A stretch of 41,999 nucleotides of DNA from Burkholderiaceae bacterium. Its GTDB lineage: Bacteria > Pseudomonadota > Gammaproteobacteria > Burkholderiales > Burkholderiaceae_C. Position 1 is the first letter of the stretch, and each line of letters starts with the position of its first letter. The notes below the pieces were generated by a model, which had not been told where the DNA came from, did not search any database, and was given only the letters and a program-made list of their open reading frames with translations. Positions 23,166 to 39,408 of this stretch are shown in pieces. The position numbers and the translations under genes were made by a program. The stretch is from assembly GCA_013360485.1 (NCBI GenBank), contig JABWBN010000010.1, forward strand, positions 1-41,999. The letters run 5' to 3'.

Positions 23166-23429
23166 CGTGAATGTCGCGCGTTGGTTGGTGATGCTGGTTT
23201 GAACGCATCAGCCCAGGCAACGGGGTCAAGCGAAACTGGGCGCGCGATGGGCATCGATGCCGACGACGGGCAAGGCGGGCTGTGCCGCCGCTCTGCGGTG
23301 CGCGGCGGCAACCTCGCCACCGAGCACATGACGCCGTTGTGGGTGCACAGGGCTCGCATGGAGGGTCACACACCTCGCATGCTGCGGGCCGCACAGGGGC
23401 GCTGATTTTGTCGCTATCAGACGAGGAAA
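23166..23429. other. Intergenic stretch with no recognisable gene
   Basis: Between the VIT-VWA gene and the island end I see no supported coding frame, RNA or repeat. The first 60 bases would hold the promoter of the VIT-VWA gene on the minus strand. Short frames here lack family resemblance. Confidence 0.5.
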
Positions 23430-23454
23430 AGCCACAACTGAGAACAGTTGGGGC
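23430..23454 (-). terminator. Terminator-like hairpin beyond the tmRNA remnant
   Basis: The 10-base arms at 23431-23440 and 23445-23454 pair with one mismatch around an AGAA loop. Read on the minus strand, the stem is followed by TTTT. It lies 12 bases beyond the remnant tmRNA 3' end, which is how the real tmRNA terminator lies beyond the intact gene. Confidence 0.65.
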
Positions 23455-23465
23455 TTCAATAGTGG

Positions 23466-23505
23466 TGGTGGAACACGGAACCGAACCCGCGTCCGCAATC
23501 CGGAC
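23466..23505 (-). repeat. Degenerate tmRNA 3'-end copy (attachment-site remnant, island left end)
   Basis: Read on the minus strand this segment gives TTGCGGACGCGGGTTCGG, a T-C-C core, and TCCACCA, the same order as the last 35 or so bases of the intact tmRNA at 39409 (TTGCGGACGGGGGTTCGA ... TCCACCA). I count roughly 29 of 37 positions alike, with two bases missing. The T-stem no longer pairs well, so it is not functional. A terminator-like hairpin follows. This is the pattern left at the distal end of an element inserted at the 3' end of ssrA. The exact crossover bases cannot be fixed. Confidence 0.7.
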
Positions 23506-23556
23506 CCGATAGTAACGCCTCGGCCTTGAGGGCGTGAATTCGAAAATTTGGCCGAA

Positions 23557-24672
23557 TCAATCCGCCAGTTCGTAGCCGGTGCTGCGCCCGCCGCCGGGCG
23601 ATTTCTTCAGCACGCCCAGTTCCAGCAACTGCGTGATGTCGCGCAGCGCGGTGTCGGGCGAGCACTTGGCCATTGACCCCCACTTGCTGCTCGTGAGCTT
23701 GCCCTCGAAGCCGTCGAGCACGCGGTTGAGCATCTTCACCTGCCGCTCGTTCAACGACGTGCCCGCCCAGCGGTGCCAGAAGCGCGCCTTGACCAACACG
23801 GCATCCAGCGTGGACTGCGCACTGGCGATGGCGCGCCCGAGCGTGCCGAGGAACCACGACAGCCAGCCGGTGACATCGAGCGTTCCCTTCTGCGTGCGCT
23901 CCAGCACGTCGTAGTAGTCCTTGCGCTCGCGCTGGATCTGCGCCGACAGGCTGTAGAAGCGCTGCGGGCTGCCGTCGGCGCGGGCCAGGAACAGGTCGCC
24001 CACGGCGCGGGCGATGCGCCCATTGCCGTCGTCGAAGGGGTGCAGGGTCACGAACCACAGGTGCGCGAGACCTGCTTTGACGAGTGCCGGCTCGCCGGTC
24101 TGTTCGTTCGCCCACCTCAGGAAGCGGGCCGCCTCAAAAGGCAGCACATCAGCGGGCGGCGCCTGGAAGTGAACCTTGCGCCGTCCCACTGGGCCAGAAA
24201 CCACCTGCATGGGCCCATCGGCGTCGTCGCGCCACTGGCCGAGGGCGATCTTGTTCATGCCCGAGTACCCGGTCGGGAACAGCGCCGCATGCCAGCCGAA
24301 CAGGCGCTCGGCGGTCAGTGGTTCGGCACTGCGCGACGTGGCGTCGAGCACCATCTCGACCACGCCCTCGACGTGCCGGTCCACCGGGGCCACCGCGCCG
24401 ATGTCCACGCCCAGACGCCGGGCGATGGACGAGCGCACGGACTCCACGTTCAGCACTTCGCCTTCGATCTCGCTGGTCTTGACCACGTCCTCGGTCAAGG
24501 CGGCGAGACTGGCCTGGTCACGCAGCGCCAGCCCCACGTCGGCCAGACGGCCCAGCAGCAGGCCTTGGGCGCGACTCACCTCGGTCAGTGGCCCGGCCAG
24601 CGCAGACAGGTCGTAGCGCCAGTTCGGCCAGTCGTCTGACTGCCAGACGTAGAGTTGTTCTCCGCTAATCAT
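23557..24672 (-). CDS. Fic family protein (DUF4172 type, putative AMP transferase)
   Basis: A 371-aa class II-like Fic protein. The catalytic motif HPFDDGNGR stands at about residues 211-219 (HxFxDGNGR intact), so AMPylation or a related NMP transfer to a hydroxyl side chain is expected. The inhibitory helix motif TSEIEG at about 66-71 fits (S/T)xxxE(G/N), meaning self-inhibition by a glutamate finger. The N-terminal part LYVWQSDDWPNWRYDLSAL is DUF4172-like, and the C-terminal 80 residues look like a winged HTH (SPDTALRDITQLLELGVLKKSPGGGRSTGYEL), so it may bind DNA, perhaps its own control region. I chose the ATG at 24672; a GTG at 24687 is possible. Its target is unknown. It lies just inside the island. 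Confidence 0.88.
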   Translation of the reverse strand: MISGEQLYVWQSDDWPNWRYDLSALAGPLTEVSRAQGLLLGRLADVGLALRDQASLAALTEDVVKTSEIEGEVLNVESVRSSIARRLGVDIGAVAPVDRHVEGVVEMVLDATSRSAEPLTAERLFGWHAALFPTGYSGMNKIALGQWRDDADGPMQVVSGPVGRRKVHFQAPPADVLPFEAARFLRWANEQTGEPALVKAGLAHLWFVTLHPFDDGNGRIARAVGDLFLARADGSPQRFYSLSAQIQRERKDYYDVLERTQKGTLDVTGWLSWFLGTLGRAIASAQSTLDAVLVKARFWHRWAGTSLNERQVKMLNRVLDGFEGKLTSSKWGSMAKCSPDTALRDITQLLELGVLKKSPGGGRSTGYELAD

Positions 24673-24753
24673 GCGGAGATTAAACACCCGATTCGCCGCA
24701 AAGGCAAGTCATGCTCCGCGTTGCGTGCGGCGAATAAGGCGGCTAATCGCCGC
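24659..24753. promoter_or_regulatory. Cluster of inverted GCGG(C/A)GA boxes around the fic start
   Basis: TCTCCGC (24659-24665) and GCGGAGA (24673-24679) form a 7-bp inverted repeat enclosing the start codon. ATTCGCCGCA (24691-24700) and TGCGGCGAAT (24726-24735) form a perfect 10-bp inverted repeat with a 25-bp spacer. GCGGC (24739-24743) and GCCGC (24749-24753) form a third. All share GCGGMGA-like cores next to AT-rich TAAT/ATTA. The arrangement suggests a multi-site operator for autoregulation by the HTH-bearing Fic protein or another island regulator. Confidence 0.55.
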
Positions 24754-24942
24754 AGGCCACGCTTTCCAGATAAGGGCGCATTCCATTGGCAACGCGGCAG
24801 ATATCGACGTCGCGCCAGATCTCGTCGCCGGTCACCTGTCAGTTCATGGAAGCTCAAGGCGGTCGGCGTGCTCGGCCAGCGCCCTGGCCTGGTGTCGGAT
24901 CCATCGCGGTTGCCATGCGGAGCCTGCATGGAGACCCCAACG

Positions 24943-25410
24943 ATGACCCGACACTGCACCAGCTGCGGCAAGCCCTTCGAACCGCGCCCGCAAACGCCCA
25001 ACCAAACCTTCTGTTCCTTGCCCGACTGCCAGCGCGCCCGCAAGCGACAGTGGCAGCGAGCCAAGTTCCAATCCGATCCGGACTACCGGATCAACCAGCG
25101 CGCCGCCCAGCAGGCGTGGGCACAGCGCAACCAGGACTACTGGCGCAACTACCGCGAAGCCCGGCCCGAATGCGCGCAGCGCAACCGCGAGCAGCAGCGG
25201 TCGCGGGATCGAGGGCCAAACGTCGATCTTGCAAAGATGGACGTGTGCGACCTGCCGACCGGTCTGTACCGCATCACGCAGTACCCGGCGTCGCCGAGGG
25301 AGAACGGCGATTCATGGGTTGTCGAGATCACGCCGGTTTGCGTGACGTGTCCGTGCAAGATGGACGTGTCAAGAGAGGACTTGATCGACACCTCGGCGAT
25401 CCGACCGTAA
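24943..25410 (+). CDS. Small zinc-ribbon protein, function unknown
   Basis: A 155-aa protein starting MTRHCTSCGKPFEPRPQ, with CxxC at 5-8 and FCSLPDCQRARKRQWQRAKFQSDPDYR, so four cysteines could bind one zinc. The middle is rich in Arg, Gln, Trp and Tyr (RAAQQAWAQRNQDYWRNYREARPE) and the C-terminus ends with a CVTCPCKMDV cluster. Proteins with this N-terminal pattern are often encoded next to mobile-element genes, which fits its place just before the recombinase operon. The ATG at 24943 has GGAGA about ten bases upstream; an ATG at 24928 would add five residues. It may be DNA binding, but there is no proof. Confidence 0.7.
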   Translation: MTRHCTSCGKPFEPRPQTPNQTFCSLPDCQRARKRQWQRAKFQSDPDYRINQRAAQQAWAQRNQDYWRNYREARPECAQRNREQQRSRDRGPNVDLAKMDVCDLPTGLYRITQYPASPRENGDSWVVEITPVCVTCPCKMDVSREDLIDTSAIRP

Positions 25411-25546
25411 CTTCGACCCCAAACAGGCTCTCGAATTCTCTGCATGGCAACGATTCCGACCGTGTGCGCTGCCGCCGTGGCGCGGCGTCGCGTTCATTGA
25501 AAGGAGTGGCAGACCCGAGAGCACCAATCGCAGAGTGACCGGGCCT

Positions 25547-27112
25547 ATGAAAGAGATCGAACCTCCTCCACGCCCGCCGGGGTCGGGCCCGGTGTTTCGG
25601 GCCGCGCAATACGTGCGGATGTCGACCGAGCACCAGCAATATTCGACGCAGAACCAGGGCGACAAGATCCGCGAGTACGCCGCCCGACGCAACATCGAGA
25701 TCGTCCGCACCTACGCCGACGAGGGCAAGAGCGGGCTGCGCATCGACGGGCGACAGGCACTCCAGCAACTGATCGCCGACGTCCAGGCGGGCACGGTCGA
25801 CTTCCAGATCATCCTCGTCTACGACGTGAGCCGCTGGGGGCGCTTCCAAGACGCGGACGAAAGCGCGTACTACGAATACATCTGCCGCCGTGCCGGGATT
25901 CAGGTCGCCTACTGCGCGGAGCAGTTCGAAAACGACGGCTCGCCGGTGTCCACCATCGTCAAGGGCGTCAAGCGCGCGATGGCGGGCGAGTACAGCCGGG
26001 AGCTTTCCGCGAAGGTGTTCGCCGGGCAGTGCCGCTTGATCGAACTCGGCTTTCGCCAGGGCGGGCCAGCGGGCTATGGCCTGCGCCGTGTGCTGATCGA
26101 CCAGTCCGGTTCCGTGAAGGGTCAACTGGTGCGCGGCGAGCACAAGAGCCTGCAAACCGACCGCGTGATCTTGCAGCCCGGTCCGGATTCGGAAGTCGCC
26201 GTCGTGAACCAGATCTACCGCTGGTTCGTCGAGGACGGCCTGTTCGAGTCGGAGATCGCCGACCGGCTCAACACCAAGGGCATCGTCACCGATCTTGGCC
26301 GGGCATGGACGCGGGCCACCGTGCGCGAGGTGCTCTCCAACGAGAAGTACATCGGCAACAACGTCTACAACCGGCGCTCCTTCAAGCTCAAGAAGACGCG
26401 GGTGGTGAACAGCCCGGAGATGTGGATCAAGAAGGAAGGCGCGTTCGAGGGCATCGTGCCCGCCGATCTGTTCTACACCGCGCAGGGCATCCTGCGCGAG
26501 CGCGCGCACCGCTTCAGCGACGATGAACTCATCGAGAAACTGCGCCGCCTCCTCCAGCAACGCGGCTACCTTTCGGGCCTGATCATCGATGAGGCCGAAG
26601 GAATGCCGTCCGCGGCAGCCTACGCGCACCGCTTCGGCAGCCTGATCCGCGCCTACCAGACGGTTGGCTTCACGCCCGACCGGGACTACCAGTACCTGGA
26701 GGTCAATCAGTTCCTGCGACGCCTGCACCCGGAGATCGTCGGTCAGACCGAACGGACGATCGCCGAGGTCGGTGGTGCGGTCGTTCGCGATCCGGCGACC
26801 GACCTGCTCACGGTCAACCGCGAGTTCACCGTTTCGCTGGTGCTGTCGCGCTGCCAGTGGCTGGACAACGGTCGTCGTCGCTGGAAGGTGCGCTTCGACA
26901 CCAGCCTGATGCCGGACATCACGGTCGCTGTCCGGCTTGATGAGATCAACCAGGCAGCGCTGGACTACTTCCTGCTGCCCCGACTGGACTTCGGTCAGAT
27001 GCGCATCCACCTGGCCGATCACAACGGCCTCGAATTCGAGAGCTACCGCTTCGACAGCTTGGACTACCTCTACGGCATGACCGAGCGCAGCCGCATCCGG
27101 AGGGCAGCATGA
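25547..27112 (+). CDS. Large serine recombinase (resolvase/invertase N-terminal domain)
   Basis: The protein of about 521 aa has the serine recombinase catalytic domain: YVRMSTEHQQYSTQNQ with the nucleophilic Ser near residue 26, the IRTYADEGKSG-type motif, and DVSRWGRFQDADE. Later come a Recombinase domain (RQGGPAGYGLRRVLID ... IYRWFVEDGLFESEIADRLNTKGI) and the RxxxxILSNEKYIGNNVYNR segment common to large serine recombinases. No clear zinc-ribbon cysteine set is visible. It should cut and rejoin DNA at two att-like sites through a 5'-phosphoserine link. ATG at 25547 or GTG at 25535 are both possible starts. The stop overlaps the next gene by four bases, the first link of a four-gene run. Confidence 0.9.
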   Translation: MKEIEPPPRPPGSGPVFRAAQYVRMSTEHQQYSTQNQGDKIREYAARRNIEIVRTYADEGKSGLRIDGRQALQQLIADVQAGTVDFQIILVYDVSRWGRFQDADESAYYEYICRRAGIQVAYCAEQFENDGSPVSTIVKGVKRAMAGEYSRELSAKVFAGQCRLIELGFRQGGPAGYGLRRVLIDQSGSVKGQLVRGEHKSLQTDRVILQPGPDSEVAVVNQIYRWFVEDGLFESEIADRLNTKGIVTDLGRAWTRATVREVLSNEKYIGNNVYNRRSFKLKKTRVVNSPEMWIKKEGAFEGIVPADLFYTAQGILRERAHRFSDDELIEKLRRLLQQRGYLSGLIIDEAEGMPSAAAYAHRFGSLIRAYQTVGFTPDRDYQYLEVNQFLRRLHPEIVGQTERTIAEVGGAVVRDPATDLLTVNREFTVSLVLSRCQWLDNGRRRWKVRFDTSLMPDITVAVRLDEINQAALDYFLLPRLDFGQMRIHLADHNGLEFESYRFDSLDYLYGMTERSRIRRAA

Positions 27113-28008
27113 CCAGGCAGAGCCACGCCACCGACCTACAGATGATCCCCGTCGATCAGATCGCCGTGCTCAACCCGCGCGACCGCAATGGCCGCTTGTT
27201 CGAGGAAATCGTCGCCAACATCCGCAGCCTTGGCTTGAAGAAGCCGGTCACGGTGACGCCACGCCCCGAGTTGGAGGATGGCAAACGCTACCTGCTGATC
27301 TGCGGCGAAGGAAGGCTCAAGGCATTCAAGGCGATTGGCGGCAAGCAGATTCCGGCGCTGGTCGTCGCGGTCGGCGACGAGGACGCGTTCATCATGAGCC
27401 TGACGGAAAACATCGCCCGCCGCGCGTACCGTCCGCTGGAGTTGTTGGCCGGCATCGAGCAACTAAATCAGCAGGGCTACGACAAGAAGGTCATCGCCCA
27501 GAAAACCGGCCTGAGCCTCGACTACGTCAAGGGGATCCTGCTCCTGCTGAAGAATGGCGAGGAACGCCTCCTGGTCGCCGTCGAAGGCGGTCGTGTTCCG
27601 CTCAACGTGGCGATCACCATCGCGGGCGCCGGCAGCGACGAAGCCGTGCAGGCTGCGCTGCAAGACGCCTATGAAAGCGGCCAACTGCGAGGCGGGCAGT
27701 TGATGCAGGTGCGCCGCGTGCTTCAGCGGCGCAGCGCCCTGGGCAAGTCCGTCGCGCATCGACCGGCGCGCAAGGGATCGGCCATCACCACCTCCAGTTT
27801 GGTGCGCAATTACCAGCATGAGGTGGAGCGGCAGAAGCTGCTCGTCAAGAAAGCCGAGTTCACTCAACAGCGCCTGCTGTTCGTGATCGAGGCACTGCGC
27901 CAGCTGCTGAGCGACGAGCATTTCACCAACCTGTTGCGTGCCGAAGGGCTGGACACCTTGCCCAAGCAACTGGCCGAGCGCGTCTGGGCCGGAGGCCATG
28001 CGGCATGA
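27109..28008 (+). CDS. ParB N-terminal-domain protein (first ParB-like of the operon)
   Basis: A 299-aa protein. Its N-terminal half shows a ParB/Srx-like domain: IPVDQIAVLNPRDRN, IVANIRSLGLKKPVTVTPR, LLICGEGRLKAFKAIGGKQIPALVV, and FIMSLTENIARRAYRPLELL (the ENxxR block). A central HTH follows (YDKKVIAQKTGLSLDYVKGILLLLKNGEERLL). The GEGRLKA box stands where CTP-binding ParB proteins have GERRxRA, so CTP or phosphate binding is possible. The C-terminal third has a heptad-like helical stretch (HEVERQKLLVKKAEFTQQRLLFVIEALRQLL). ATGA overlaps on both sides show translational coupling to the recombinase and to the second ParB-like gene. No ParA is seen nearby, so classical partition is uncertain. 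Confidence 0.85.
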   Translation: MTRQSHATDLQMIPVDQIAVLNPRDRNGRLFEEIVANIRSLGLKKPVTVTPRPELEDGKRYLLICGEGRLKAFKAIGGKQIPALVVAVGDEDAFIMSLTENIARRAYRPLELLAGIEQLNQQGYDKKVIAQKTGLSLDYVKGILLLLKNGEERLLVAVEGGRVPLNVAITIAGAGSDEAVQAALQDAYESGQLRGGQLMQVRRVLQRRSALGKSVAHRPARKGSAITTSSLVRNYQHEVERQKLLVKKAEFTQQRLLFVIEALRQLLSDEHFTNLLRAEGLDTLPKQLAERVWAGGHAA

Positions 28009-28889
28009 GCCAGCCGTCTCTGGGATTCATCCCCAACCCGCTGACCTTGCCGCTGGATCAGATCCTGCCTTCGCGGAAGACGCCCGAAGGTGTGCTGACT
28101 TCGCGCAAGTACAAGCAAATCGTGGCGTCGCTGGAGGCCGTCGGTCTGATTGAACCGTTGAGCGTGGGCAAGGCCGACAACGCCACTGGTCGCCACGTTC
28201 TGCTGGACGGACACATGCGTTTGCTGGCGCTGCGGCAGATCGGCTACAGCGACGCACCGTGCCTGATCGCCACCGACGACGAAAGCTACACCTACAACAA
28301 CCGGATCAACCGCATCTCCTCGATCCAGGAGCATCACATGCTGCGGCGCGCGGTCGAGCGCGGCGTTACGCCGGACCGGTTGGCCAAGGCGCTGAACGTG
28401 GACATCAGCCTGATTCACAAGAAGGTCGGAATGCTCGACGGCATCTGCCCGGAGGCGGTTGAAATGCTGAAAGATCAGCACTTCTCAACCAACCTCAGTT
28501 CGGTGCTGCGAAAGCTCAAGCCGACGCGGCAGATCGAGTGCATCGAACTGATGCTGACCGCGAACAACATGACTGTCGCCTATGCCGAGGCCTTGCTCGT
28601 GGCCACGCCGCCGCACCTGCTGGTCAGCGAAACCAAGCCCCGAAAGGTACGGGGCGTCACCGCCGAGCAGATGACGAAGATGGAGCGCGAAATGGGCAGC
28701 CTGCAGGGGCAACTGAAAGTGGTCGAGAAGTCCTACGGTCAGGACGTGCTGCTCCTCGTGCTGGCGCGCGGCTACCTCAGTAAGCTGATCGACAACAAGG
28801 CGGTGTTCCGCTTTCTTTCCCAGCGCCAGCCCGACGTGCTGGCCGAGTTCGAAAACATCGTCCAGACGGTTGCGCTGGACGGCAAGTGA
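28005..28889 (+). CDS. RepB/ParB-like protein (second ParB-like of the operon)
   Basis: A 294-aa protein with an N-terminal ParB-like domain (LPLDQILPSRKTPEGVLTSRKYKQIVASLEAVGLIEPLSV ... VLLDGHMRLLALRQIG), a central HTH region (RAVERGVTPDRLAKALNVDISLIHKKVGML), and a C-terminal part resembling the RepB family of plasmid partition proteins (LKDQHFSTNLSSVLRKLKPTRQIECIELMLTANNMTVAYAEALL). The DGHxRL box again replaces the GERR box of true ParB. It overlaps the first ParB-like gene by four bases and its stop is joined directly to the next start. The two proteins share fold and size but not close sequence, so they probably act as a pair with different contacts. Confidence 0.86.
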   Translation: MSQPSLGFIPNPLTLPLDQILPSRKTPEGVLTSRKYKQIVASLEAVGLIEPLSVGKADNATGRHVLLDGHMRLLALRQIGYSDAPCLIATDDESYTYNNRINRISSIQEHHMLRRAVERGVTPDRLAKALNVDISLIHKKVGMLDGICPEAVEMLKDQHFSTNLSSVLRKLKPTRQIECIELMLTANNMTVAYAEALLVATPPHLLVSETKPRKVRGVTAEQMTKMEREMGSLQGQLKVVEKSYGQDVLLLVLARGYLSKLIDNKAVFRFLSQRQPDVLAEFENIVQTVALDGK

Positions 28890-30383
28890 ATGCGCCGGAG
28901 CCTCGATGCCCCCTCGCCATCGCACGCCGCGTCGCCACCCGCCGATGTCCATAGCGACGCCGCGATCAGCGCACACCGCAACGCGCCGCAACCCGAACCG
29001 GCCTGCCTCTATGGCCTCATCGGCGACGTCGCTCGCGCAGGCAGTGACGGCACGGAGACCAACGCTTACGCCATCGCGGCAAACTTTATGGCGTACTTGT
29101 CCTGCGCGGTCGGGCGTGGCGTGTACCTTCCCATCGGCAATACCCGGCACCACGCGCGGCTGTTCTGCCTGCACATCGGACGCTCGGGCCGTGGCCGCAA
29201 GGGCGACGCGGTGTCGCTGGTCCTGCGCATCGACGAGACCTTGCGGGCGATGGACGCCACCATTGCGCCACAGGTTCACCGGGGTGGCCTGTCCACACGC
29301 GAGGGGCTCGCGGCACTGATCCACGATGGCTACCGACAGGGTCGGCAGGACGTGCCCGCCATTGAGGACAAGCGGCTGTGGGTGGTCGAATCCGAGTTTG
29401 CCAACGTGCTGCATCAGGGGCGGCGCGATGGCAACACGCTGTCAGCGGCGCTGCGCGACTGTTGGGATGGCGTCGATCTGAAACCGGCAACGAAATCCAA
29501 CCGGGTCTACGCCAGCGATCCTCACGTCTGCCTGTGCGGCGCGATCTCGCCCAGTGAGCTGATAGGCCTGATGAGCACCCGGGAAATGAGCAACGGCTTC
29601 GCCAACCGTTTCCTGATGATCTGGGCCGAGCGAACGCGCATGCTTCCGTTCCCGAAGGAAACGCCGCAAACGGTGGTTGAACATCTTGCGCGCAGGACGT
29701 TGGATGTGCTGGCTTTCGTTCGCGCCGACCAGCACGAAGACCGCGACCACCTTCGGATTGAACTCTCGCCTCAAGCGCGGTGGCGCTACGCACGCCTGTA
29801 CCGGGGCGAACTGCACGAGGAACTCGGCGGTGGCGCAGTTGCATCGCTGTTGGAACGTCGCGCCCCGATACTGCTGCGGTTGGCGATGCTGATGGCGCTG
29901 ACCGATCTGCAACTCCGGATTGACGCGGAGCACATCGATGCGGCGATGGCGTGGATTCGCCACGCCACCGCATCTGTCCGTTATGTGTTCTTCACCGCGG
30001 CCGACGAAGCAAAGCTGGCGCACGCGCTGGAACTGTCGAACCGCGTGCTGGCCTTCCTGCGCGAGCGAGGTCAGGCCACGCGCAGTCAGATCAGTTCTGA
30101 ATGCTTTCGGGGCAAGGTGTCCAAGGCCTTGATCGATGCCAGCCTGGAACACCTTCTGGCCGCTACACCCTCCATGATCAGCGTGCAGTGGGCGAGCGGC
30201 CTGCCGACACACCGGGAACACCAACGCGGGTATACCGGCCCGTGTAGTCGGAGAACTCATTTCGCTCGTTTCGCCGCGCCGTTTCGTCCGCAAGTGCTTG
30301 TCGGTCTTCTCATTTCTCTGATTTCGCTGATTTCGCGCAGTGCCCGTCCACAAACCATCGCGGTCGATCCTGCTTTTCTGTAG
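28890..30383 (+). CDS. DUF3987/primase-helicase-like protein with degenerate P-loop
   Basis: The 497-aa protein resembles DUF3987/YfjI-type proteins, relatives of phage and plasmid helicase-primase C-terminal domains. Visible pieces: YGLIGDVARAGSDGTETNAYAIAANFMAYLS, then LHIGRSGRGRKGD at about 94-106, which stands where a Walker A loop is expected but has R-K-G in place of GK(S/T). VVESEFANVL could be a Walker B-like strand. ELIGLMSTREMSNGFANRFLMIWAERTRMLPFP is a family-type block, and a winged-helix-like C-terminal segment follows (RGQATRSQISSECFRGKVSKALIDASLEHLL). The last 60 residues are low complexity. It starts one base after the previous stop. A replication or DNA-remodelling role for the element is likely but not shown. 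Confidence 0.72.
   Translation: MRRSLDAPSPSHAASPPADVHSDAAISAHRNAPQPEPACLYGLIGDVARAGSDGTETNAYAIAANFMAYLSCAVGRGVYLPIGNTRHHARLFCLHIGRSGRGRKGDAVSLVLRIDETLRAMDATIAPQVHRGGLSTREGLAALIHDGYRQGRQDVPAIEDKRLWVVESEFANVLHQGRRDGNTLSAALRDCWDGVDLKPATKSNRVYASDPHVCLCGAISPSELIGLMSTREMSNGFANRFLMIWAERTRMLPFPKETPQTVVEHLARRTLDVLAFVRADQHEDRDHLRIELSPQARWRYARLYRGELHEELGGGAVASLLERRAPILLRLAMLMALTDLQLRIDAEHIDAAMAWIRHATASVRYVFFTAADEAKLAHALELSNRVLAFLRERGQATRSQISSECFRGKVSKALIDASLEHLLAATPSMISVQWASGLPTHREHQRGYTGPCSRRTHFARFAAPFRPQVLVGLLISLISLISRSARPQTIAVDPAFL
30306..30334 (+). repeat. Three-unit 9-bp tandem repeat in the 3' end of the DUF3987-like gene
   Basis: Three near-identical 9-base units (CTCATTTCT, CTGATTTCG, CTGATTTCG) encode LIS-LIS-LIS close to the C-terminus of the DUF3987-like gene. 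Such short repeats can gain or lose units by slippage without shifting frame. Confidence 0.5.
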
Positions 30384-30472
30384 TGGTGCCCCGCCCAAAG
30401 CCGTTCGGTCGGTCTGCTTGCGATGCCTGGCCGGAATTTCGTTCGAAGAACGGACGAACCCGATGGCGCAAG

Positions 30473-31669
30473 TCACCCCTTCACGCACACGACTTGCTTG
30501 AGCGTGTGCAGGATCTCGGTCAGGTCTCGCTGGTTGGCCATGACCACATCGATGTCCTTGTAGGCTCCGGGAATCTCATCGAGTACGCCCTTGTCCTTGC
30601 GGCAAATGACACCTGCTGTCTGCGCCTCGAGGTCGGCCTCGGTGAAGTGCTTTTCGGCGGCCGTTCGACTCATGCGGCGGCCGGCGCCGTGCGCGCTGGA
30701 GCAGAAACTCTCGGCATTGCCCTTGCCGCGCACGATGTAGCTGCGAGCCCCCATGCTTCCCGGAACGATGCCGAGATCGCCCTCTCGGGCGCGAATCGCC
30801 CCCTTGCGGGTTACCCAGACGTCAGCGCCGTAGTGATGCTCCTTGGCCACGTAGTTGTGATGGCAGTTCACCGCCTCGGTGGTGACCTCGAACGAAGGAA
30901 GATGCCGTGCGAGCGCGTCCAGAACCAGGTCGAGCATCGCCTTGCGATTGGCCATCGCATATTCCTGCGCCCAGTGGACCGCTTCGACGTAGTCATCGAA
31001 GTGCTCGGTCCCTTCCGGAAAGTAGGCCAGATCACGGTCGGGCAGTTGGATCATCCAGCGCTCCATGTCCTTTCGAGCCAGCTGGATGAAGTAGTCGGCG
31101 ATCGCGTTGCCGATGCCGCGGCTTCCTGAGTGCAGCATCACCCAGACTTGATCGGATTCGTCGATGCAGACTTCGATGAAGTGGTTGCCGCCGCCGAGGG
31201 TGCCCATCTGATGGGTCCACTTGGAGAACTTGCCGAAGGCTTTCAGGAGTTGCGGATGACGGTCGGTCAGCGCCTTCAGGCCGGGCTCGAACGGGCGCGC
31301 AACTTCCACCAGCACCCGGTTGTCGGCGTGTTGACTGCGACCCACGGGCACATCCCTGGTGATCTGGTCGAAGACCTTCTTCAGGGCCTTCTCGTCGAGG
31401 TCATTGGCCGTGATCGACAGTCGGGCCGCCACCATGCCGCAGCCGATGTCCACACCGACCGCGGCCGGGATGATGGCCTTGTGGGTGGCGATGACCGAAC
31501 CGATGGTGGCGCCGATGCCCAGATGCACGTCGGGCATGGCGGCGACGTGGTGGTGCACAAAGGGCAGCTCGGCGATGTTCGCCAGCTGCTCCTTCGAGCG
31601 ATCGTCGACGTCGTCGGTCCAAATCTTGACCGGCACGCGCCGATCGGTGAGAACTTGTTGGATGGGCAT
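30473..31669 (-). CDS. rtcB: RNA-splicing/repair ligase RtcB
   Basis: A 398-aa RtcB, the GTP- and Mn-dependent ligase that joins 2',3'-cyclic phosphate (or 3'-phosphate) to 5'-OH RNA ends. Signatures: MPDVHLGIGATIGSVIAT, VDIGCGM with the metal-binding Cys, the GGGNHFIEV motif, LHSGSRGIGN, a central NCHHNY, and at the C-terminus FCSSAHGAGRRMSR, whose His is the guanylylated residue. All appear intact and the length is near the 408 aa of E. coli RtcB. No rtcA, rtcR, archease or prfH gene is beside it. It is the last gene of a minus-strand chain inside the island. No strong ribosome-binding site precedes its ATG. Confidence 0.94.
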   Translation of the reverse strand: MPIQQVLTDRRVPVKIWTDDVDDRSKEQLANIAELPFVHHHVAAMPDVHLGIGATIGSVIATHKAIIPAAVGVDIGCGMVAARLSITANDLDEKALKKVFDQITRDVPVGRSQHADNRVLVEVARPFEPGLKALTDRHPQLLKAFGKFSKWTHQMGTLGGGNHFIEVCIDESDQVWVMLHSGSRGIGNAIADYFIQLARKDMERWMIQLPDRDLAYFPEGTEHFDDYVEAVHWAQEYAMANRKAMLDLVLDALARHLPSFEVTTEAVNCHHNYVAKEHHYGADVWVTRKGAIRAREGDLGIVPGSMGARSYIVRGKGNAESFCSSAHGAGRRMSRTAAEKHFTEADLEAQTAGVICRKDKGVLDEIPGAYKDIDVVMANQRDLTEILHTLKQVVCVKG

Positions 31670-31671
31670 AT

Positions 31672-31740
31672 CTACAGCATGTCGCTGATCTTGTAGAAGG
31701 GCTTGTTCGGATCACGCGAGAGCGGCAGGTTCTCTGGCAT
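31672..31740 (-). CDS. Possible 22-aa ORF overlapping the VWA gene end and touching rtcB
   Basis: A short frame reads MPENLPLSRDPNKPFYKISDML and stops three bases before the rtcB ATG. It overlaps the 3' end of the VWA gene in another frame. It may be a leader peptide that couples rtcB translation, a frameshifted tail of the VWA protein, or chance. The residue mix looks protein-like, but support is weak. Confidence 0.25.
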   Translation of the reverse strand: MPENLPLSRDPNKPFYKISDML

Positions 31741-33661
31741 CACACACCACTTCAGCCGCACCGCCCAATGCGAACACCCCATCGGGCCACATGCTGGCAG
31801 TCATGCCGTTCAGCACCGCCGCCATCGCCTCGACCAGGAGCACATCAACGCTGTTCGGCGCATCAACGGTTCCGCCGGCAAACATCTCACGAAGTCGCTG
31901 AATCGTTGACCTGAAGACACCGAGCAGGCCCTCGGAATTCGCCAGCGAGTCGTGCGTCTCTTTGCGGGCCATCAGGTACACGAACGCCTCGACCACCCCC
32001 GACTCCGGATGGACGACTCCTGCATGATTGGCCATCGAAAGTTCGAGCCAGTCGACAAGCCAGGTGCCCAGCCCAATGAGCCGCAGATCAGCGTAGGTCT
32101 TTGGCCAATCGGGCGCTGGAGTCATGCGAAGCCATTCACTCACACCAAGGGGCGTCAAACCCGCGTAGTGCTCAGACTCGGACCAATATCGCGAGTCCTG
32201 GTGATCGATGATCCGATCGCGCCTGCGCAGGAATGCAGGTATGAAGGCATCGTCCTGCATGGAAAGGTCAGGCGATGCGTGTCTCGCGGTCCTGTAAACC
32301 GCCGGCGCCGACAGCGCATCGAAGTCGCCGTAGTTCGTGGTTCCTGACTTCAGATAGTCGACAGCCGGGGCCTCAGCGAGTGTGCTTCTTCGGGAGAACA
32401 TCACCGAACCCATACCACCCCAGCCTGCCGGCACCATCTGATCCACCTTGCGCAGCTCGGGCATGTCGGTCGCCTTCGCAGCGTTCTGCCGTTCATGGGT
32501 CAGCAGGAAGTTGGTCTCGTCGGTGACCAACTGGTAGGCCACCGCCAGTTGGGTGGCCACCTTCGGCGTCACTGCGTCCAACCCACCCTTGCGTGCTGAA
32601 TGGAACCACACCGATGCCGCCACGCGCGACAGGGTGTCTGCCGCTTCCAACTCGCCCACGAACGCCACGCTGCCGATCTCCTGCGCGGTCCCGTCCTCGG
32701 ATCGCTTGCCCAGTAGTTGCACTTCTCCGGCCGGTAGTTCTCGGAGCAGGGCAAAGATGTTGACCGTATCTCCATCAAAGACAGATGGGAGCAATGGCGA
32801 CACCCATTGCGGGGTCACACCAGTCGGCCAGGCCAGGCTCAGATCGGACAGTCGAGGCGAGCGCAAGCGCGCAAACATTCTGAGCACCGCAGGCTCGACC
32901 GCTTCGCCGGGCGCGACGAAGTCGCAAGCACCGCCAGTGGCTTCGGCCAGGCGACGCAAATGCGTCTCAGCGGGGCTGCAGCCGATTCCCACCACGAACA
33001 GTCGGTGACCGGAAGCTCGGGCCGACTCGATCGTGTCATCGATGGCGCTGATCTCACCGTCCGTCACGACCAACACATCGCTGCCGACCGTGTGCGCCAG
33101 GGCAAACGTCGAGGACAACGCACCCTTCATCTCGGTGCCGCCGAGGTCGGCCTTCAGCGAGCCGACCCAACGCTGGGCCGCCAACTTGGTCGTCTCCGTC
33201 GCCTTCCACAGTCCGCGCGACCGATGCTCGACCGTGCTGCCGAATCGGGACAACGAAAAGCGATCGCCCTCGCCCAGCTGCTGGACGATGGCTTGCAAGG
33301 CACGTCTGGCCGCATCGATGCTGTCGCCCGCCATCGAACCCGAGCAGTCGACCAAGACCTTGACCGCCATCGATGCTGCGCCTTGCGCGCGGATTCGCGG
33401 GCAAAAGCTGGCCAAGACGGCGATGCCGTCGGGCTCGACGCCATCTCGCGCGGCGACAAGGATGGACTCGTGCGTCAGCTGGTCGATGACCAGAACGAGG
33501 TCCCGATCCAATGAAGCCTGGCGAGCCAAGGACACGGTCAGCACGCCGCCCGACTCGGACGGGCCGTGGGCAACACCGATGGGGTGGCTGGGAGAGGCCA
33601 CGCGAGCGCGCGCCAAGTCACCATGCAGCCTGACCTCCAGATCGAACGGGTGGTCAGCCAA
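31712..33661 (-). pseudogene. VIT/VWA protein lacking the N-terminal part of the VIT domain
   Basis: The open frame of 649 codons starts (TTG) inside the last strands of a VIT domain: DHPFDLEVRLHGDLARARVASPSHPI and LDRDLVLVIDQ are what usually closes that domain, so about 150-180 residues seem missing. An intact von Willebrand A domain follows, with the MIDAS-type DCSGSMAGDS near residue 108, a GGTEMKGAL threonine block near 175, and VLVVTDGEIS near 195. The C-terminal 300 residues are unassigned. It overlaps the end of the BRO gene by eight bases, and that gene also looks cut there, so both were probably truncated at one junction. It may still be translated from a weak start. Confidence 0.7.
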
Positions 33662-34241
33662 AAGGCTGTGGGTCGGTAATCAGCTTGCCGACCTGGGTGG
33701 CGTTGAGCGAGCACGTCGGCTCGTTGGCGGCCGGCAGCGCGCGGCGCAGCGTCTCGACCGCGAGGCCGGTGTTCTCGTGGATGCAGGTCAGCGTCGCGGC
33801 CATCGCGATGCCGGCCTTGACGCCCGGCACCTTGGCTACCGCCTCGCCGATCAGCAGGATCGAAGAGACGCGGTCCTGCGTCGGCGCGGGGAGTGCCTGC
33901 ACGAGGCCACCTACGGCGTAGGCGCCCGTCTTGCGGATGGCCGGCAACACTTCGCCGGTCACCCAGCGCTTGAAACGCTTGGCCGCGTCCTTGGTGCTGC
34001 CAAGGATCAGCGCGTAGAGGCCCGACTCGTTGACGTGGTTCTGGCGCTGGCGGCCACCCGCCGTAAGGGTCTCCAGTTTCTGGAGATCCTCAGCGTCGAC
34101 GTGGGACTTCAGCGCCTGGGACGGATTGCCCAGTTCCAGCGCCTCGCAGACGTCGCTGGCGTTGAACCAGGGCTGGCCGCCGTCATCGACCTGCACGCGC
34201 ACGGCGTGCGACTCGAACTGGAAGGGGATGATCGCGGACAT
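33654..34241 (-). CDS. BRO-N antirepressor-like protein, C-terminally truncated
   Basis: A 195-aa protein with a BRO-N domain in its first 100 residues: IIPFQFESHAVRVQVDDGGQPWFNASDVCEALEL, NPSQALKSHVDAEDLQK, VNESGLYALILGSTKDAAKRFKRWVTGEVLPAIRKTGAYAV. This family works as phage antirepressors or DNA-binding regulators. Near the end LNATQVGKLI begins what looks like the usual C-terminal DNA-binding segment but stops after a few more residues (TDPQPFG), at the joint with the truncated VWA gene. The ATG at 34241 is preferred to the GTG at 34247. It is coupled to the small ORF upstream by a short overlap region. Confidence 0.82.
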   Translation of the reverse strand: MSAIIPFQFESHAVRVQVDDGGQPWFNASDVCEALELGNPSQALKSHVDAEDLQKLETLTAGGRQRQNHVNESGLYALILGSTKDAAKRFKRWVTGEVLPAIRKTGAYAVGGLVQALPAPTQDRVSSILLIGEAVAKVPGVKAGIAMAATLTCIHENTGLAVETLRRALPAANEPTCSLNATQVGKLITDPQPFG

Positions 34242-34243
34242 GG

Positions 34244-34402
34244 TCACGCCTCGCTGTCGTTGTCCAACAGGGCCAGCGCCGATGTAACCCAGGCCTGCCC
34301 TGCCAGGTCGCTGTAGCTACCGCAGAGTGTGCTGATCGCGCCGATCGATGCGGTTTCAACAAACCGGTGGACGGACGCCGTGTTCTTGTTCGCCTGGGCC
34401 AT
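34244..34402 (-). CDS. Small hypothetical protein, 52 aa
   Basis: Starts MAQANKNTASVHRFVETASIGAISTLCGSYSDLAGQ and ends just before the BRO start, 29 bases after the PIN gene stop. It has no motif I recognise and no strong ribosome-binding site (GAAG ten bases upstream). Its place inside a close-packed minus-strand chain is the main reason to keep it. Confidence 0.4.
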   Translation of the reverse strand: MAQANKNTASVHRFVETASIGAISTLCGSYSDLAGQAWVTSALALLDNDSEA

Positions 34403-34431
34403 TTGTTCGTTCTTCGCGTTGACGCTTCCTG

Positions 34432-34971
34432 TCAGGGGATGATCCCGAGGCGGACCTTCACCTTGATTTCGTCGAGCCATTGCTGGCGGTAGTGCCGGGC
34501 CATCTGGTCGACCTGAACGCGGCTGACACCGGCTTGCTGAGCCAGTTGTTCGAGCGACGTCACGATGTCCAGCCAGTCGAGCCGGCCGGCGGCGACGATC
34601 GCCGCCTTGTCGGCCGTTGATAGCAGCAGCTTGACCGTTGCGGTCTGGCCTTGGCCGTGCAGCCAGGCCAGCAGATGAAGCTCGCCATCGTCGAGCCCGG
34701 CGCTGGCCGGATGGGCGAGCGCGAAACGCGCAATGGTGCGCTTGTCGACCGCGTGGCGAGCGGCCAAGCCGGCCACCAGGATGTCATGGTCGACAGTCAC
34801 ATGGCGGGGATCTGCCGGGTCACCGGTCAGGGCTTCCTCGACGCATTTCTCGACGGTCTCAACTAAGAAGGCTGCGGCCAGCGCCGGCCAGCATCCGATG
34901 CGAAATGCTTCGAGGATGACGTTGGTGTCGACGAAGACGCGAACTCGGGCTGGCGGGGCGACCTGCTGCAT
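34432..34971 (-). CDS. PIN-domain nuclease, toxin-like
   Basis: A 179-aa protein starting RVFVDTNVILEAFRIG, the first acidic strand of a PIN domain, with a conserved-looking Glu (VEKCVEEAL) and a second acidic cluster LDDGELHLLAWL near residues 93-105. These would form the metal site for RNA cleavage. The C-terminal 50 residues contain an HTH-like segment (LEQLAQQAGVSRVQVDQMARHYRQQWLDEI). The start is 12 bases after the XRE-ImmA stop, and a GAGG made partly of that stop's surroundings serves as ribosome-binding site, so the two are coupled. PIN proteins paired with XRE/COG2856 proteins are known as toxin-antitoxin-like pairs. RNA target unknown. Confidence 0.82.
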   Translation of the reverse strand: MQQVAPPARVRVFVDTNVILEAFRIGCWPALAAAFLVETVEKCVEEALTGDPADPRHVTVDHDILVAGLAARHAVDKRTIARFALAHPASAGLDDGELHLLAWLHGQGQTATVKLLLSTADKAAIVAAGRLDWLDIVTSLEQLAQQAGVSRVQVDQMARHYRQQWLDEIKVKVRLGIIP

Positions 34972-34983
34972 TCCAGGCGCGCC

Positions 34984-36102
34984 TCAAAGCTCATAGGGTG
35001 CAGCCATGGAATGCTCGGCGAACAAGTCGACCAGTTGCGTGAGGTTCATACCCATCGCCTTGGCTGCCTTGCGCGCCGACAACCGTCCCTTGTCGATTGC
35101 CCGATGCAGCATCGCGACGAACTTCGGCGAGAACCGCTTCGGAGCGGCGGATCGCACGAGCCGCTGTCGCTCGGTCTTCAGAGCCTGAAGCGTCGGTTCG
35201 GTGACCCGCCGCAGGTTGAAGAGTCGCCACGCGAGGGCCGCCGGAGCGACGCGCAGCTGTGCCGCGATCTCTGCCAGGTGGTCGGCATCGTCGATGCGGC
35301 GACGATCGATCAGCCGATCCAGCGACGCCGTGGGCATGAGCAACGCAGCAGCGAAGTTGTTGGCCAGCTGCTCGATACGCTTGCCTCGCGAGCGGTCCTC
35401 GACCGAGTTGGATTCCCGGTGGTCGGGCTGCATCGCGTCCCACGTCAGTGCATGGAACAGCTCATGCGCCAAGTCATAGAAACGCCGCGCCTCGGGTTCG
35501 TGGCGGTTGATGAGGATGACGCCTAGATCCTGGAGGTGGCAGGTCGCGCCAGAGACTGACTCGCCTTCTGCGGTCTGGACGGTATCGACGAACAGCACCG
35601 GGATGTCGAGGCCGCGCTCCACACGATCGATCAGACGCTCGGCAGGCACGTCACCAAGATCCAGCGCCTGCACGAGGCTTTCGGCGCGTTCCTGGGCGTC
35701 CTCGAACGAGGACTGCGCGGTCAGCCGCAGGCTGTGCTTGAGCGGGCCTTGCTGGCTCTCCGACGCCCGCAGCCAGCGCAGCAGACCGATCCACTGCCCT
35801 GCCTTCAGCTCGAACTCGTCCAGTGTGGCTTCGTCGATCTCGGGCGCGGCGCGCCAGTTGAACTGGGCTTCGCCGGTGACGGCGAACGGGTCCAGAAAGA
35901 ACTCGACGTCGCGGTCGAGCAGGTCGGAGAGCAGCACCAGCTCGTCGGGCTTGACCAGCCGCTTGCCCTTTTCGATGTCCGACAGTGTTTGCCGGTCGTT
36001 CAGGTTCATCGCGGAGGTCAACTGCTCCTGCGTCCAACCTTTGCCCTCGCGTGCTGCCTTCACGCGATAGCCGACCAGGCGGGGTGAGAGACGGTCGAGC
36101 AT
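34984..36102 (-). CDS. XRE-family HTH fused to ImmA/IrrE metallopeptidase
   Basis: A 372-aa fusion. Residues 8-62 are a Cro/CI-type HTH (RVKAAREGKGWTQEQLTSAMNLNDRQTLSDIEKGKRL). Residues 150-300 are an ImmA/IrrE peptidase with the zinc-binding HELFH motif at about 213-217 and a downstream EQLANNFAAALLMP block that gives the third ligand. This class (COG2856) controls phage, ICE and toxin-antitoxin operons, where the peptidase part relieves repression after damage. I prefer the ATG at 36102 because AAGGAAG stands just upstream; the ATG at 36114 would leave almost no leader after the promoter. It heads the chain PIN, 52-aa ORF, BRO, VWA, rtcB and probably represses it. Confidence 0.88.
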   Translation of the reverse strand: MLDRLSPRLVGYRVKAAREGKGWTQEQLTSAMNLNDRQTLSDIEKGKRLVKPDELVLLSDLLDRDVEFFLDPFAVTGEAQFNWRAAPEIDEATLDEFELKAGQWIGLLRWLRASESQQGPLKHSLRLTAQSSFEDAQERAESLVQALDLGDVPAERLIDRVERGLDIPVLFVDTVQTAEGESVSGATCHLQDLGVILINRHEPEARRFYDLAHELFHALTWDAMQPDHRESNSVEDRSRGKRIEQLANNFAAALLMPTASLDRLIDRRRIDDADHLAEIAAQLRVAPAALAWRLFNLRRVTEPTLQALKTERQRLVRSAAPKRFSPKFVAMLHRAIDKGRLSARKAAKAMGMNLTQLVDLFAEHSMAAPYEL

Positions 36103-36126
36103 GGCTTCCTTCATGGAAAGGACTGC

Positions 36127-36155
36127 ATTGTATTCTTGCGAAACGGAATTTGCAA
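36127..36155 (-). promoter_or_regulatory. Promoter with overlapping operator for the XRE-ImmA chain
   Basis: On the minus strand a -35 TTGCAA (36155-36150) and a -10 TACAAT (36132-36127) are separated by 17 bases. A dyad CTTGC ... GCAAG (about 36135-36156) covers the -35 and spacer. The spacing and the overlap fit a sigma-70 promoter repressed by its own XRE product. Confidence 0.7.
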
Positions 36156-36240
36156 GACTGAGGGTGCATTGCTCTACGTTGCCATCCTGTTCGGGCGGCC
36201 TCGCGGACCATCGATGAGGTTTCGACTCCCTCGACCCGCC

Positions 36241-36432
36241 ATGAAGAACATCGAACTTGCATCTCCGTCCGAAATGACGCCCGGCGCCCGCGCCGCCGAG
36301 ATCACCGCCATCGTTGCGGCCGCCATCGTCCGCACCCTGGTCACCGGCAAGCCGAAAGAGAGCCCGGTTGGCCTTGGCTTCCTGCCCGACCAGCGCGTTC
36401 ATGCAACCCCGTATCAAGACCAGAGGTTGTGA
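36241..36432 (+). CDS. Small hypothetical protein before DUF2924 gene
   Basis: A 63-aa frame: MKNIELASPSEMTPGARAAEITAIVAAAIVRTL, then a Pro/Gly-rich tail. Its stop overlaps the DUF2924 start by one base, which supports translation although no clear ribosome-binding site precedes it. It has a short helical segment rich in Ala and Ile and no known motif. Small ORFs of this kind often lead DUF2924-recombinase modules. Confidence 0.6.
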   Translation: MKNIELASPSEMTPGARAAEITAIVAAAIVRTLVTGKPKESPVGLGFLPDQRVHATPYQDQRL

Positions 36433-36874
36433 TGAACGAGAACCAAGCAAGCATCGCGGCGCGGATCGCCGAGTTGGGCCACCTGCCGATGGCCGAGCTC
36501 TGGACGCTGTGGGACCGCTACTTCGACCGGCGCCCCGAGCACCCGAACCGCATCCACGTCGAGTCCCGCATCGCCTACAAGCTGCAGGAAGAGGCTTTCG
36601 GCGGACTCGCCGTTGAGACGCGCCAGCGTCTGGAGGCCATCGGTGCGAAGCACTCCAAGATCAAGCTGCGCGCCAGGCCGCGGACTTTCGACTTCGCGCC
36701 GGGCACTGTGCTACTGCGAGAGTGGGGCGAGCGCGAGTACCGGGTCACGGTCAACGCCGAGGGACGCTTCGAGCACGACGGACGCAGCTTCAAGAGCCTC
36801 ACCGCCGTCGCCCGGCACATCACCGGCCAGCACTGGAGCGGGCCGCTGTTCTTTGGCCTGAAGGGTGGCGCCTG

Positions 36875-36875
<1 letters not shown>
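36432..36875 (+). CDS. DUF2924 domain protein
   Basis: A 147-aa protein of the DUF2924 family: IAARIAELGHLPMAELWTLWDRYFDRRPEHPNRIHVESRIAYKLQEEAFGGL, then FDFAPGTVLLREWGEREYRVTV and FEHDGRSFKSLTAVARHITGQHWSGPLFFGL. The last part resembles a small DNA-contact module. DUF2924 genes regularly precede serine recombinase genes in prophages and islands, as here, so it may be a recombination accessory factor. AGAGG stands six bases before the ATG. The stop overlaps the recombinase start by one base. Confidence 0.88.
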
Positions 36876-38250
<1,375 letters not shown>

Positions 38251-38254
<4 letters not shown>

Positions 38255-38634
38255 AGGACGGCGCGCTGGAGACCTTCGTGCCGATGACCCTGCGCCGCCG
38301 CGGCGTGCAGCGACTTGTGCAGGCGGTGACCGAGAACCGCGAGGCGCACGACAGCACGCTGATCGAGGGGATGGCGCGGGCCTTCCACTGGCAGCACCTG
38401 CTGGACACCGGCTCGCTGGCCAGCGGATCGGCCATCGCGCGCGCAGAGGGGCTGCATCACTCCGTGGTCAACGAACTGCTGCGGCTCACGCTGCTCGCGC
38501 CCGACATTGTCGAGGCACTGATGGCCGGGCGGCAGCCACGCCGCATGACGCTGTTGTGGTTCCAGCGCCACCCGCTGCCGGTGGACTGGCATGCGCAGCG
38601 CGAGATCGTGCGGCGGTTCGAGGAGCGAGCGTGA
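38251..38634 (+). CDS. Small HTH-like protein of the recombination module (copy 1)
   Basis: A 127-aa protein with a likely HTH: GMARAFHWQHLLDTGSLASGSAIARAEGLHHSVVNELLRLTLLAPDIVEALMAG. The TGxxxSxxxIARAEGLxxxxVxxLLRLTLLAP pattern is shared with the next gene. It overlaps the recombinase stop by four bases and the next start by four. It may direct or regulate the recombinase. Family members downstream of such recombinases are common in proteobacterial islands, but I know of no assigned function. Confidence 0.75.
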
Positions 38635-39104
38635 GCGCCAAGCACCGGGGAAGGCTCGGCGGCGCACCGAACACCCGGCAACTGCCGACCCCGGCCGGCG
38701 GCGTGAAGCTGGAGACTTTCGTGCCTTGGCGGCTGGTGCAGCGGGGCGTCAGGAGAGAAGTCATCACGCCGCTGGACGCACCGCAGGAGTTCGCGGTAGA
38801 GGCCACCCGGGAGCGAGAAGCGCGCGCCGCCGCGCAGGACACGGCGCTTACGCGCGCGCTGGGGTTGGCGCACCACTGGCAACGGCTGCTCACCGAGCGG
38901 CGCATGGCGTCGGTGGCCGAGATCGCCAGGGCCGAGGGACTGGATGCCTCGCAGGTGCATCGTCTGATGCGGCTGACGCTGCTGGCACCAGAGGTAGTCG
39001 AGCGGCTGGTCGCCGCTCGCGACCTGCCGGTCGAGAGGATGCTCGGTCGGCCGTGGCCCTACGGGTGGGCCGAGCAGGCCAAGGTGCTGGCCGGGTTCAC
39101 GTGA
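38631..39104 (+). CDS. Small HTH-like protein of the recombination module (copy 2)
   Basis: A 157-aa protein with GTG start at 38631, overlapping the previous stop. It repeats the layout of the previous gene: LETFVPWRLVQRGVRREV near the start matches LETFVPMTLRRRGVQRLV, and GLAHHWQRLLTERRMASVAEIARAEGLDASQVHRLMRLTLLAPEVVERLV matches the HTH block. It has about 20 extra N-terminal residues. The pair arose by tandem duplication and has since diverged. A rho-independent hairpin follows. Confidence 0.75.
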   Translation: MSAKHRGRLGGAPNTRQLPTPAGGVKLETFVPWRLVQRGVRREVITPLDAPQEFAVEATREREARAAAQDTALTRALGLAHHWQRLLTERRMASVAEIARAEGLDASQVHRLMRLTLLAPEVVERLVAARDLPVERMLGRPWPYGWAEQAKVLAGFT

Positions 39105-39124
39105 CCTGCGACGCACCGCTGCGG

Positions 39125-39146
39125 AAGCCGCCTTCGGGCGGTTTTC
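39125..39146 (+). terminator. Rho-independent terminator of the DUF2924-recombinase operon
   Basis: GCCGCC-TTCG-GGCGG stem-loop with a TTTT run (around 39127-39144), 20 bases after the last stop codon of the module. Confidence 0.8.
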
Positions 39147-39370
39147 TTGCGCCAATTGGCAGCCCGGTCGCCTCTGCGGAGCACTTGCCGACCGCAACCA
39201 GAGGGCGATAAGCCCTTGTCAGACCGAGCGGGTGCCTCCGGAGTCCTCCACGGACCGCAGAGAAAAACAGAGAACAGAGAGGCCCCGGCGGCACCAGCAG
39301 CGCGGTACGGAGGGGCCCGGCCTCCACGGGCACGGCCCGGAAACCGCGCCAACACTGGCGTTCCGGGCAG
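39147..39370. other. Intergenic stretch between island operon and tmRNA terminator
   Basis: Short frames occur on both strands but none resembles a protein family. I see no RNA gene or repeat here. It probably holds the outer island sequence next to the attachment site. Confidence 0.4.
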
Positions 39371-39398
39371 AAAAAAGCCCAACCGATAAGGGTTGGGC
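39371..39398 (-). terminator. tmRNA terminator
   Basis: The arms GCCCAACC (39377-39384) and GGTTGGGC (39391-39398) pair perfectly around a GATAAG loop, and read on the minus strand they run into six T (39376-39371). It lies 11 bases beyond the tmRNA 3' end. Confidence 0.9.
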
Positions 39399-39408
39399 CT
39401 TGGGTAAA

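Follow-up and report, generated by a model that had tools for sequence, protein, structure and literature searches.

What is the task of an operon that joins a large serine recombinase to two ParB-type proteins? We addressed this question in a stretch of 41,999 nucleotides from a Burkholderiaceae bacterium (assembly GCA_013360485.1, contig JABWBN010000010.1, positions 1 to 41,999), hereafter the window, where four open reading frames (ORFs), all on the forward strand, occupy positions 25535–27112, 27109–28008, 28005–28889, and 28890–30383. ATGA overlaps join the first gene to the second and the second to the third, and the fourth ORF begins one base past the stop codon of the third. A preliminary description had reported the coupled ORFs with their overlaps and domains, which the ORF coordinates and Pfam bore out; the start of the first gene was moved to a GTG codon at 25535, position 25547 being an in-frame ATG. 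We found the conserved unit to be the first three genes (the trio of recombinase, ParB1, and ParB2), with the fourth optional, and the trio probably acts as the integration and excision module for a family of proteobacterial mobile islands and small elements. We found no description of it in the openly licensed literature, although one may exist elsewhere.

The trio recombinase (25535–27112) contains the Pfam domains Resolvase (PF00239, 1.6e-23) and Recombinase (PF07508, 4.9e-23), both over the cut-off, and gave no Pfam match to the zinc ribbon (PF13408) at E ≤ 0.1, a diverged form being possible. In a fold comparison of its structure model (pLDDT 80, pTM 0.48), the first ~330 residues matched the complexes of the SprA, Bxb1, and phiC31 integrases, and the C-terminal ~200 residues gave no match beyond a weak, below-cut-off one to HNH_repeat. 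The two ParB/RepB proteins, 299 and 294 aa long, carry GEGRLKA and DGHMRLL boxes, and the RepB domain is over the Pfam cut-off in both. ParB1 (27109–28008) also passes the cut-off for ParB_N, aligns with ParB/Noc structures (E-values down to 1.5e-18), and retains the GxGR and ENxxR boxes, which we take to be the CTP-binding boxes of ParB CTPase clamps. ParB2 (28005–28889) is recognizable but altered: its RepB match is strong (4.4e-41), its ParB_N is diverged and below the cut-off (19.5 vs. 26.3 bits), it matches the structure of Noc (2.2e-7), and DGHxR replaces GERR in the alignment. The fourth protein (28890–30383) had no Pfam match and resembles PHROGs helicase/primase families (1.3e-12 and 1.6e-11). 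Past about 30247, its frame departs from that of the relatives, among which intact copies are present, and the tail to 30383 is therefore probably not native.

To study conservation, we collected relatives of the recombinase, numbering at least 583 among at least 592 matching genome-contig stretches and 128 among 129 in viral contigs, and analyzed 80 genome loci and 80 viral-contig loci. In 134 loci, the sequence extended 2.2 kb or more past the recombinase, and a strict geometric rule recovered the trio in 128 of them (70/73 genome and 58/61 viral-contig loci). Three more (L036, L114, and L149) carry both ParB genes and fail the geometric rule only, giving 131 of 134; no ParB2 was seen in L038, L082, and L146. 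The fourth gene was present in just 19 of 126 loci (13/69 genome and 6/57 viral-contig loci), so that the four-gene unit proposed earlier holds for its first three members and not for the last. Across 133 loci, the pairwise distances of the three proteins show correlations of 0.93, 0.92, and 0.96, and since the maximum after shuffling was 0.145, the association of recombinase, ParB1, and ParB2 is beyond chance; the nearest neighbor agrees across the distance matrices in just 68–76 of the 133 loci. Upstream of the recombinase, a small Cys-rich, zinc-finger-like protein (24943–25410, forward strand) was found in 71/79 genome loci and 12/71 viral-contig loci and had no Pfam family over the cut-off. 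Both this gene and the element ends treated below were missing from the extent first given for the locus.

The trio is widespread in Proteobacteria. Within the genus of the window, 8 of 21 genomes had some ParB2 match and only one besides the window's own had a strong one (1.5e-61, 39% identity). Among the matches listed, contigs named Acidithiobacillus, Thiomonas, Comamonas, and Ottowia carry recombinases of more than 90% identity; some of these contigs come from metagenome-assembled genomes, whose organism names may be wrong. This rarity within the genus, combined with near-identity under other genus names, indicates that the module moves. ParB2 relatives were found in 108 plasmid records. 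The phage records gave one match, an unverified 7.5-kb contig; no match was found in Escherichia coli genomes with one plasmid trio as the query. Tn7-like transposition genes were present in 11 of 126 loci, all from genomes (11/69 genome and 0/57 viral-contig loci), and TnsA, TnsB, TniB, and TniQ share a locus with the trio at L051:13554–19208 and also in L050, L113, and the plasmid locus L030.

In the window, the essential RNA gene ssrA (tmRNA; 39409–39781, reverse strand) was identified by ARAGORN and Rfam (RF00023), and its 3' end provides the right attachment site. The left attachment site (23463–23501) is an imperfect copy of this end, comprising TGGTGG and the T-arm, and is identical to 39409–39447 at 29 of 39 positions, no other place in the window exceeding 22. 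These two copies are also the window's sole occurrences of the motif GG[AG]A[TC][TC][GA]AACC, and the left ends of close relatives also open with TGGTGG. Just outside the left end is an ssrA-type terminator (23426–23462, reverse strand); the surrounding 23409–23462 matches, with 90.7% identity over 54 bp, a sequence that directly abuts ssrA in the same-genus genome G014. At the right end (39335–39408, forward strand), a GCGCCAACACTGGCG hairpin is followed by a terminator, an arrangement seen before TGGTGG at nine other junctions. Given the left copy of the ssrA end and the outside DNA abutting ssrA in G014, the island is most simply 23463–39408 (15.9 kb), with the trio near its left end. An insertion at the ssrA 3' end bounded by direct repeats places it among the ssrA genomic islands.

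Larger islands share this layout, the trio lying close to the left site and ssrA standing at the right: that of G028 spans 58 kb (left site 33983, ssrA 92216) and that of G032 62 kb (left site 11758, ssrA 73743), each on one contig. In G032, the site filter also passed position 41109, which looks like coding DNA. No tyrosine integrase (PF00589) was found in the islands of G000, G028, and G032. The region 36500–39408 had no match in 17 same-genus ssrA loci, and a search of Duganella flanks for an empty site led only to mobile genes of Tn7-like type, present in 6 of 60 genomes. A wider scan for the hairpin and TGGTGG gave 53 sites in 44 loci, many of which look like coding sequence and chance, and it was therefore used by eye only. 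The conserved module itself has a sharp right edge at 30336 in comparison with the closest relatives, marked by TTTCGC repeats (30259–30336, forward strand; three matches within the window vs. a chance mean of 0.04). An element bounded by 23463–30336 alone was considered and dropped, as there is no site at that right edge and the window's ssrA is at 39409.

Ends were also found on Agrobacterium plasmids, where the trio is seen at two places. Plasmids pAtC58 and pAt1D1460 have 3,904 bases in common at 96.9% identity, consisting of one small gene and the trio; in the stretches compared, only two short matches were found beyond this piece, and the flanks differ. Copies of the 21-bp motif CRCCTTGANNGGRATYGAACC bound the element, at 7057 and 10939 in locus L031 and at 4002 and 7884 in locus L260, and with at most two mismatches L031 contains these two copies alone (0.00 expected). 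Two further plasmids (L261 and L262) lack the trio but have the left flank, at 94% and 91% identity, and the similarity stops at the same motif. The GGRATYGAACC within CRCCTTGANNGGRATYGAACC resembles the ssrA T-arm, and this ties the plasmid motif to the site in the window. The annotation of the 3.9-kb element includes no replication gene. The preliminary suggestion of a self-replicating integrative core thus survives as an integrative core, which fits best, and loses its self-replicating part, the helicase-like gene being optional; the expectation that the genes move together between flanking recombination-type sites agrees with the conservation of the trio, the ssrA repeats, and the plasmid repeats.

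We propose that the recombinase joins the element, in circular form, to a host site with the shape of a tmRNA or tRNA T-arm and 3' end, here the 3' end of ssrA, and that integration would leave imperfect direct repeats at both element ends. The right end of the element would supply a terminator, and ssrA would for that reason stay intact. ParB1 and ParB2, presumably made in step with the recombinase, would most likely bind the DNA of the attachment sites or close by, and thereby govern both pairing and direction, that is, whether the element integrates or is excised. In doing so, they may stand in for the zinc-ribbon part that the recombinase seems to lack. We infer catalysis, action of both ParB proteins on attachment-site DNA, excision, and transfer from the patterns of domains and element ends, and likewise that the trio rather than a second recombinase acts at ssrA.

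The main rival on that last point is LSR2, another large serine recombinase (36722–38254, forward strand; Pfam). It sits close to the ssrA end both in the window and in the islands of G028 and G032, and it has relatives in 12 other loci including these islands. Several further observations weigh against ssrA integration by the trio. The left junction was matched by one of 17 same-genus ssrA loci (4 of the 17 with cut flanks) and over 54 bp only, the left flank shows no synteny with G014 beyond those 54 bp, and the G014 terminator could be a remnant of an older element. The module's right edge (30336) does not fall at an attachment site, and the alpha- and beta-proteobacterial sites have only the T-arm-like part in common. 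It is thus possible, if unlikely, that LSR2 is the ssrA integrase and the trio is a passenger, or acts elsewhere, for example at the right edge of its own module, bringing in cargo. LSR2 carries a canonical zinc ribbon (PF13408), it and the trio recombinase are the only PF07508 matches in G000 (84.7% complete) and G028, and the sharp right edge is the trio module's own. The Agrobacterium plasmids, however, hold trio elements with repeats on both sides and without LSR2, and in a 15.5-kb Ottowia stretch (L039:6354 to L197:1989) the trio's recombinase is the sole PF07508 match, a point weakened by frame changes that split the trio genes in that assembly.

Two other readings fare worse. The ParB_N and RepB domains and the many plasmid records with relatives would suit a partition, or plasmid-maintenance, operon with an accessory resolvase, but the unit has attachment-type ends and no ParA is annotated beside the trio in 10 annotated plasmid regions, a count based on annotation and not on a ParA profile search. 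The Pfam-scanned neighbors of the window's trio are likewise not ParA, again with no ParA profile search, and the replication protein A/replication protein pair ~6.5 kb from the trio in L033 is probably the plasmid's own replicon. We consider this reading very improbable, in agreement with the earlier view that the locus is not a known partition system; the ssrA island ends and the plasmid elements between repeats make the trio most likely an integration module rather than a partition or replication operon. Equally improbable is that the trio is itself an anti-phage defense system: it often lies beside defense genes, but its sole match in a PADLOC scan was a weak one of ParB2 to MTase_II (6e-4), and it is conserved as a recombination module with attachment-type ends. 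The defense locus suggested at the outset may describe the neighborhood rather than the trio.

Defense genes often adjoin the trio. For 30 of 63 loci, the nearest ORF of 200 aa or more on its right side was scanned with PADLOC, and 18 of the 30 matched (E ≤ 1e-5). Leaving out three TniQ and two WYL matches, 13 were counted as defense, including BrxC, JetD, DruE, SspF, AbiEii, and restriction-modification genes, and 11 of the 30 reached E ≤ 1e-40. Genes to the left of islands served as one control and gave 2 of 10, a difference short of significance (p = 0.27 vs. the 13 and 0.45 vs. the 11). The other control drew 103 ORFs from around ssrA, of which trio-carrying genomes supplied 33 and the window's genus 70; among the matches listed, which covered 25 of 34 families, ~19 passed 1e-5 (11 mad2, 6 ZorB, 1 AbiEi, and 1 Fic) and one passed 1e-40. 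The mad2 and ZorB matches look like housekeeping relatives. With control counts from the matches listed, Fisher's test gave p = 1.5e-7 for 11/30 vs. 1/103 and p = 3.5e-5 for any match (18/30 vs. 19/103), values that are rough because the controls include orthologues and the choice of ORFs was mechanical.

The cargo of the window's own island includes, on the reverse strand, a Fic-family gene (23557–24687; Fic 4e-16, DUF4172 2.5e-31) within a block that ends at 24754 and is common to L035, L043, and L039; an RtcB-type RNA ligase gene (30473–31669; 6.9e-134), with blocks 76–77% identical at the DNA level close to the trio of L064 and L059; a VWA-domain protein gene (31712–33661; VWA_3 1.4e-20); and a gene for a regulator with HTH and M78 peptidase domains (34984–36450; Peptidase_M78 1e-12, HTH_3 1.6e-10). 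LSR2 also counts as part of this cargo. When the Fic, RtcB, and VWA genes were scanned with PADLOC, Fic alone matched. The HTH-M78 gene is adjoined by an ORF of 179 aa (34432–34971) without a Pfam match, which by eye we take to resemble a PIN-type toxin (FVDTNVILEAF). A 206-aa ORF at 38591–39211 was rejected as a gene, having an odd composition and finding only itself by tblastn among the compared loci; the ORF at 38556–39104, with weak HTH matches, is the likelier gene.

Some observations concern the borders between module, cargo, and host. Just past ParB2, a stretch of ~225 bp is conserved in L045, L046, L047, L049–L051, L059, L064, L114–L118, L197, and L201. It contains TCTTTAACAA in 15 of 15 aligned loci, which we presume to be similar to the boxA of rRNA leaders, and a hairpin RNA with covariation, 12 of its 38 pairs showing changes on both sides. 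The hairpin terminates at ...CAGCGGCACC, where the similarity stops and the cargo starts. In Ottowia beijingensis (G022, C1:822825 and C1:1441989), the intact ssrA is ~620 kb away from an ssrA-type terminator that lies by the second element, a distance suggestive of later rearrangement. One viral contig has two near-identical tandem right ends (L123:6185 and L123:8046), each preceded by a serine recombinase (identity to LSR2, 71% and 32%).

Small blocks on the Agrobacterium plasmids raise the question of whether the trio also acts in trans. In pAtCFBP5877a, a 0.9-kb hypothetical/VapC block lies between motif copies at 11069 and 11958, the latter with three substitutions. The block occurs alone in H170 and with its right neighbor in H169, and further plasmids have the left or right neighbor without it, the breakpoints being near motif copies; H171 and H172 begin elsewhere. 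In Rhizobium leguminosarum p3, the right neighbor directly follows one motif copy. Plasmid pAtLMG292a has Fic, VapC block, and Fic in a row, the sole motif copy recognized being a poor one (five substitutions), and no motif was found at the right edge of the pAtC58 Fic block. At up to five substitutions, the Agrobacterium motif is no better than chance (15 seen vs. 9.5 expected), and we therefore used copies with 0–3 substitutions alone. The pattern is suggestive of trans-mobilized cassettes. We tentatively raise the doubtful further idea that the trio could be a serine counterpart of integrons, its recombinase and two ParB-type clamps capturing and reshuffling single small defense and toxin-antitoxin cassettes, each bounded by a tRNA-T-arm-like site, including cassettes without a recombinase of their own, and helping to build defense islands.

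The module resembles several known systems in part. With the staphylococcal cassette chromosome (SCC), it shares a large serine recombinase (CcrB model, 6.9e-17), a site-specific island, and exchangeable cargo, and SCC also carries a helicase. The CcrB score, the best of CcrA/B/C, is however 61 bits vs. a cut-off of 900, the target differs, and we know of no SCC with two ParB proteins. The catalytic and recombinase domains are those of phiC31/SPbeta-type integrases, which work with a directionality factor; unlike them, the trio recombinase had no zinc-ribbon match, and a sequence comparison of ParB1 and ParB2 profiles with solved structures matched no directionality factor. The nearest published kind that we found is the Dehalococcoides ssrA island, whose insertions were placed, by inference, in the ssrA T-loop (McMurdie 2011, PMC3146451). 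The likenesses are integration at the ssrA 3' end, a sharp boundary between module and cargo, a CcrB-like serine recombinase by attL, an integration module that includes a ParBc-domain gene, tandem islands, and some islands that lack a module. The Dehalococcoides module consists of DsiB, DsiA, a RecF-like protein, one 210-residue ParBc protein, a Mom-like protein, and a polymerase-like gene. The DsiB/DsiA/RecF/ParBc/Mom set is not that of the present locus, and the present module, from another phylum, has one recombinase and two ParB/RepB proteins, a distinction made by gene content and not by sequence comparison.

If our reading is correct, the trio would be an engine by which islands that often carry defense genes move and swap cargo in Proteobacteria. 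Because it ties proteins of the ParB type to a serine recombinase, it could also reveal how such clamps guide recombination. In known serine integrases, the steering goes through the zinc-ribbon part, and since the trio recombinase appears to be without it, it may use a new form of control, which would be of interest for genome-integration tools.

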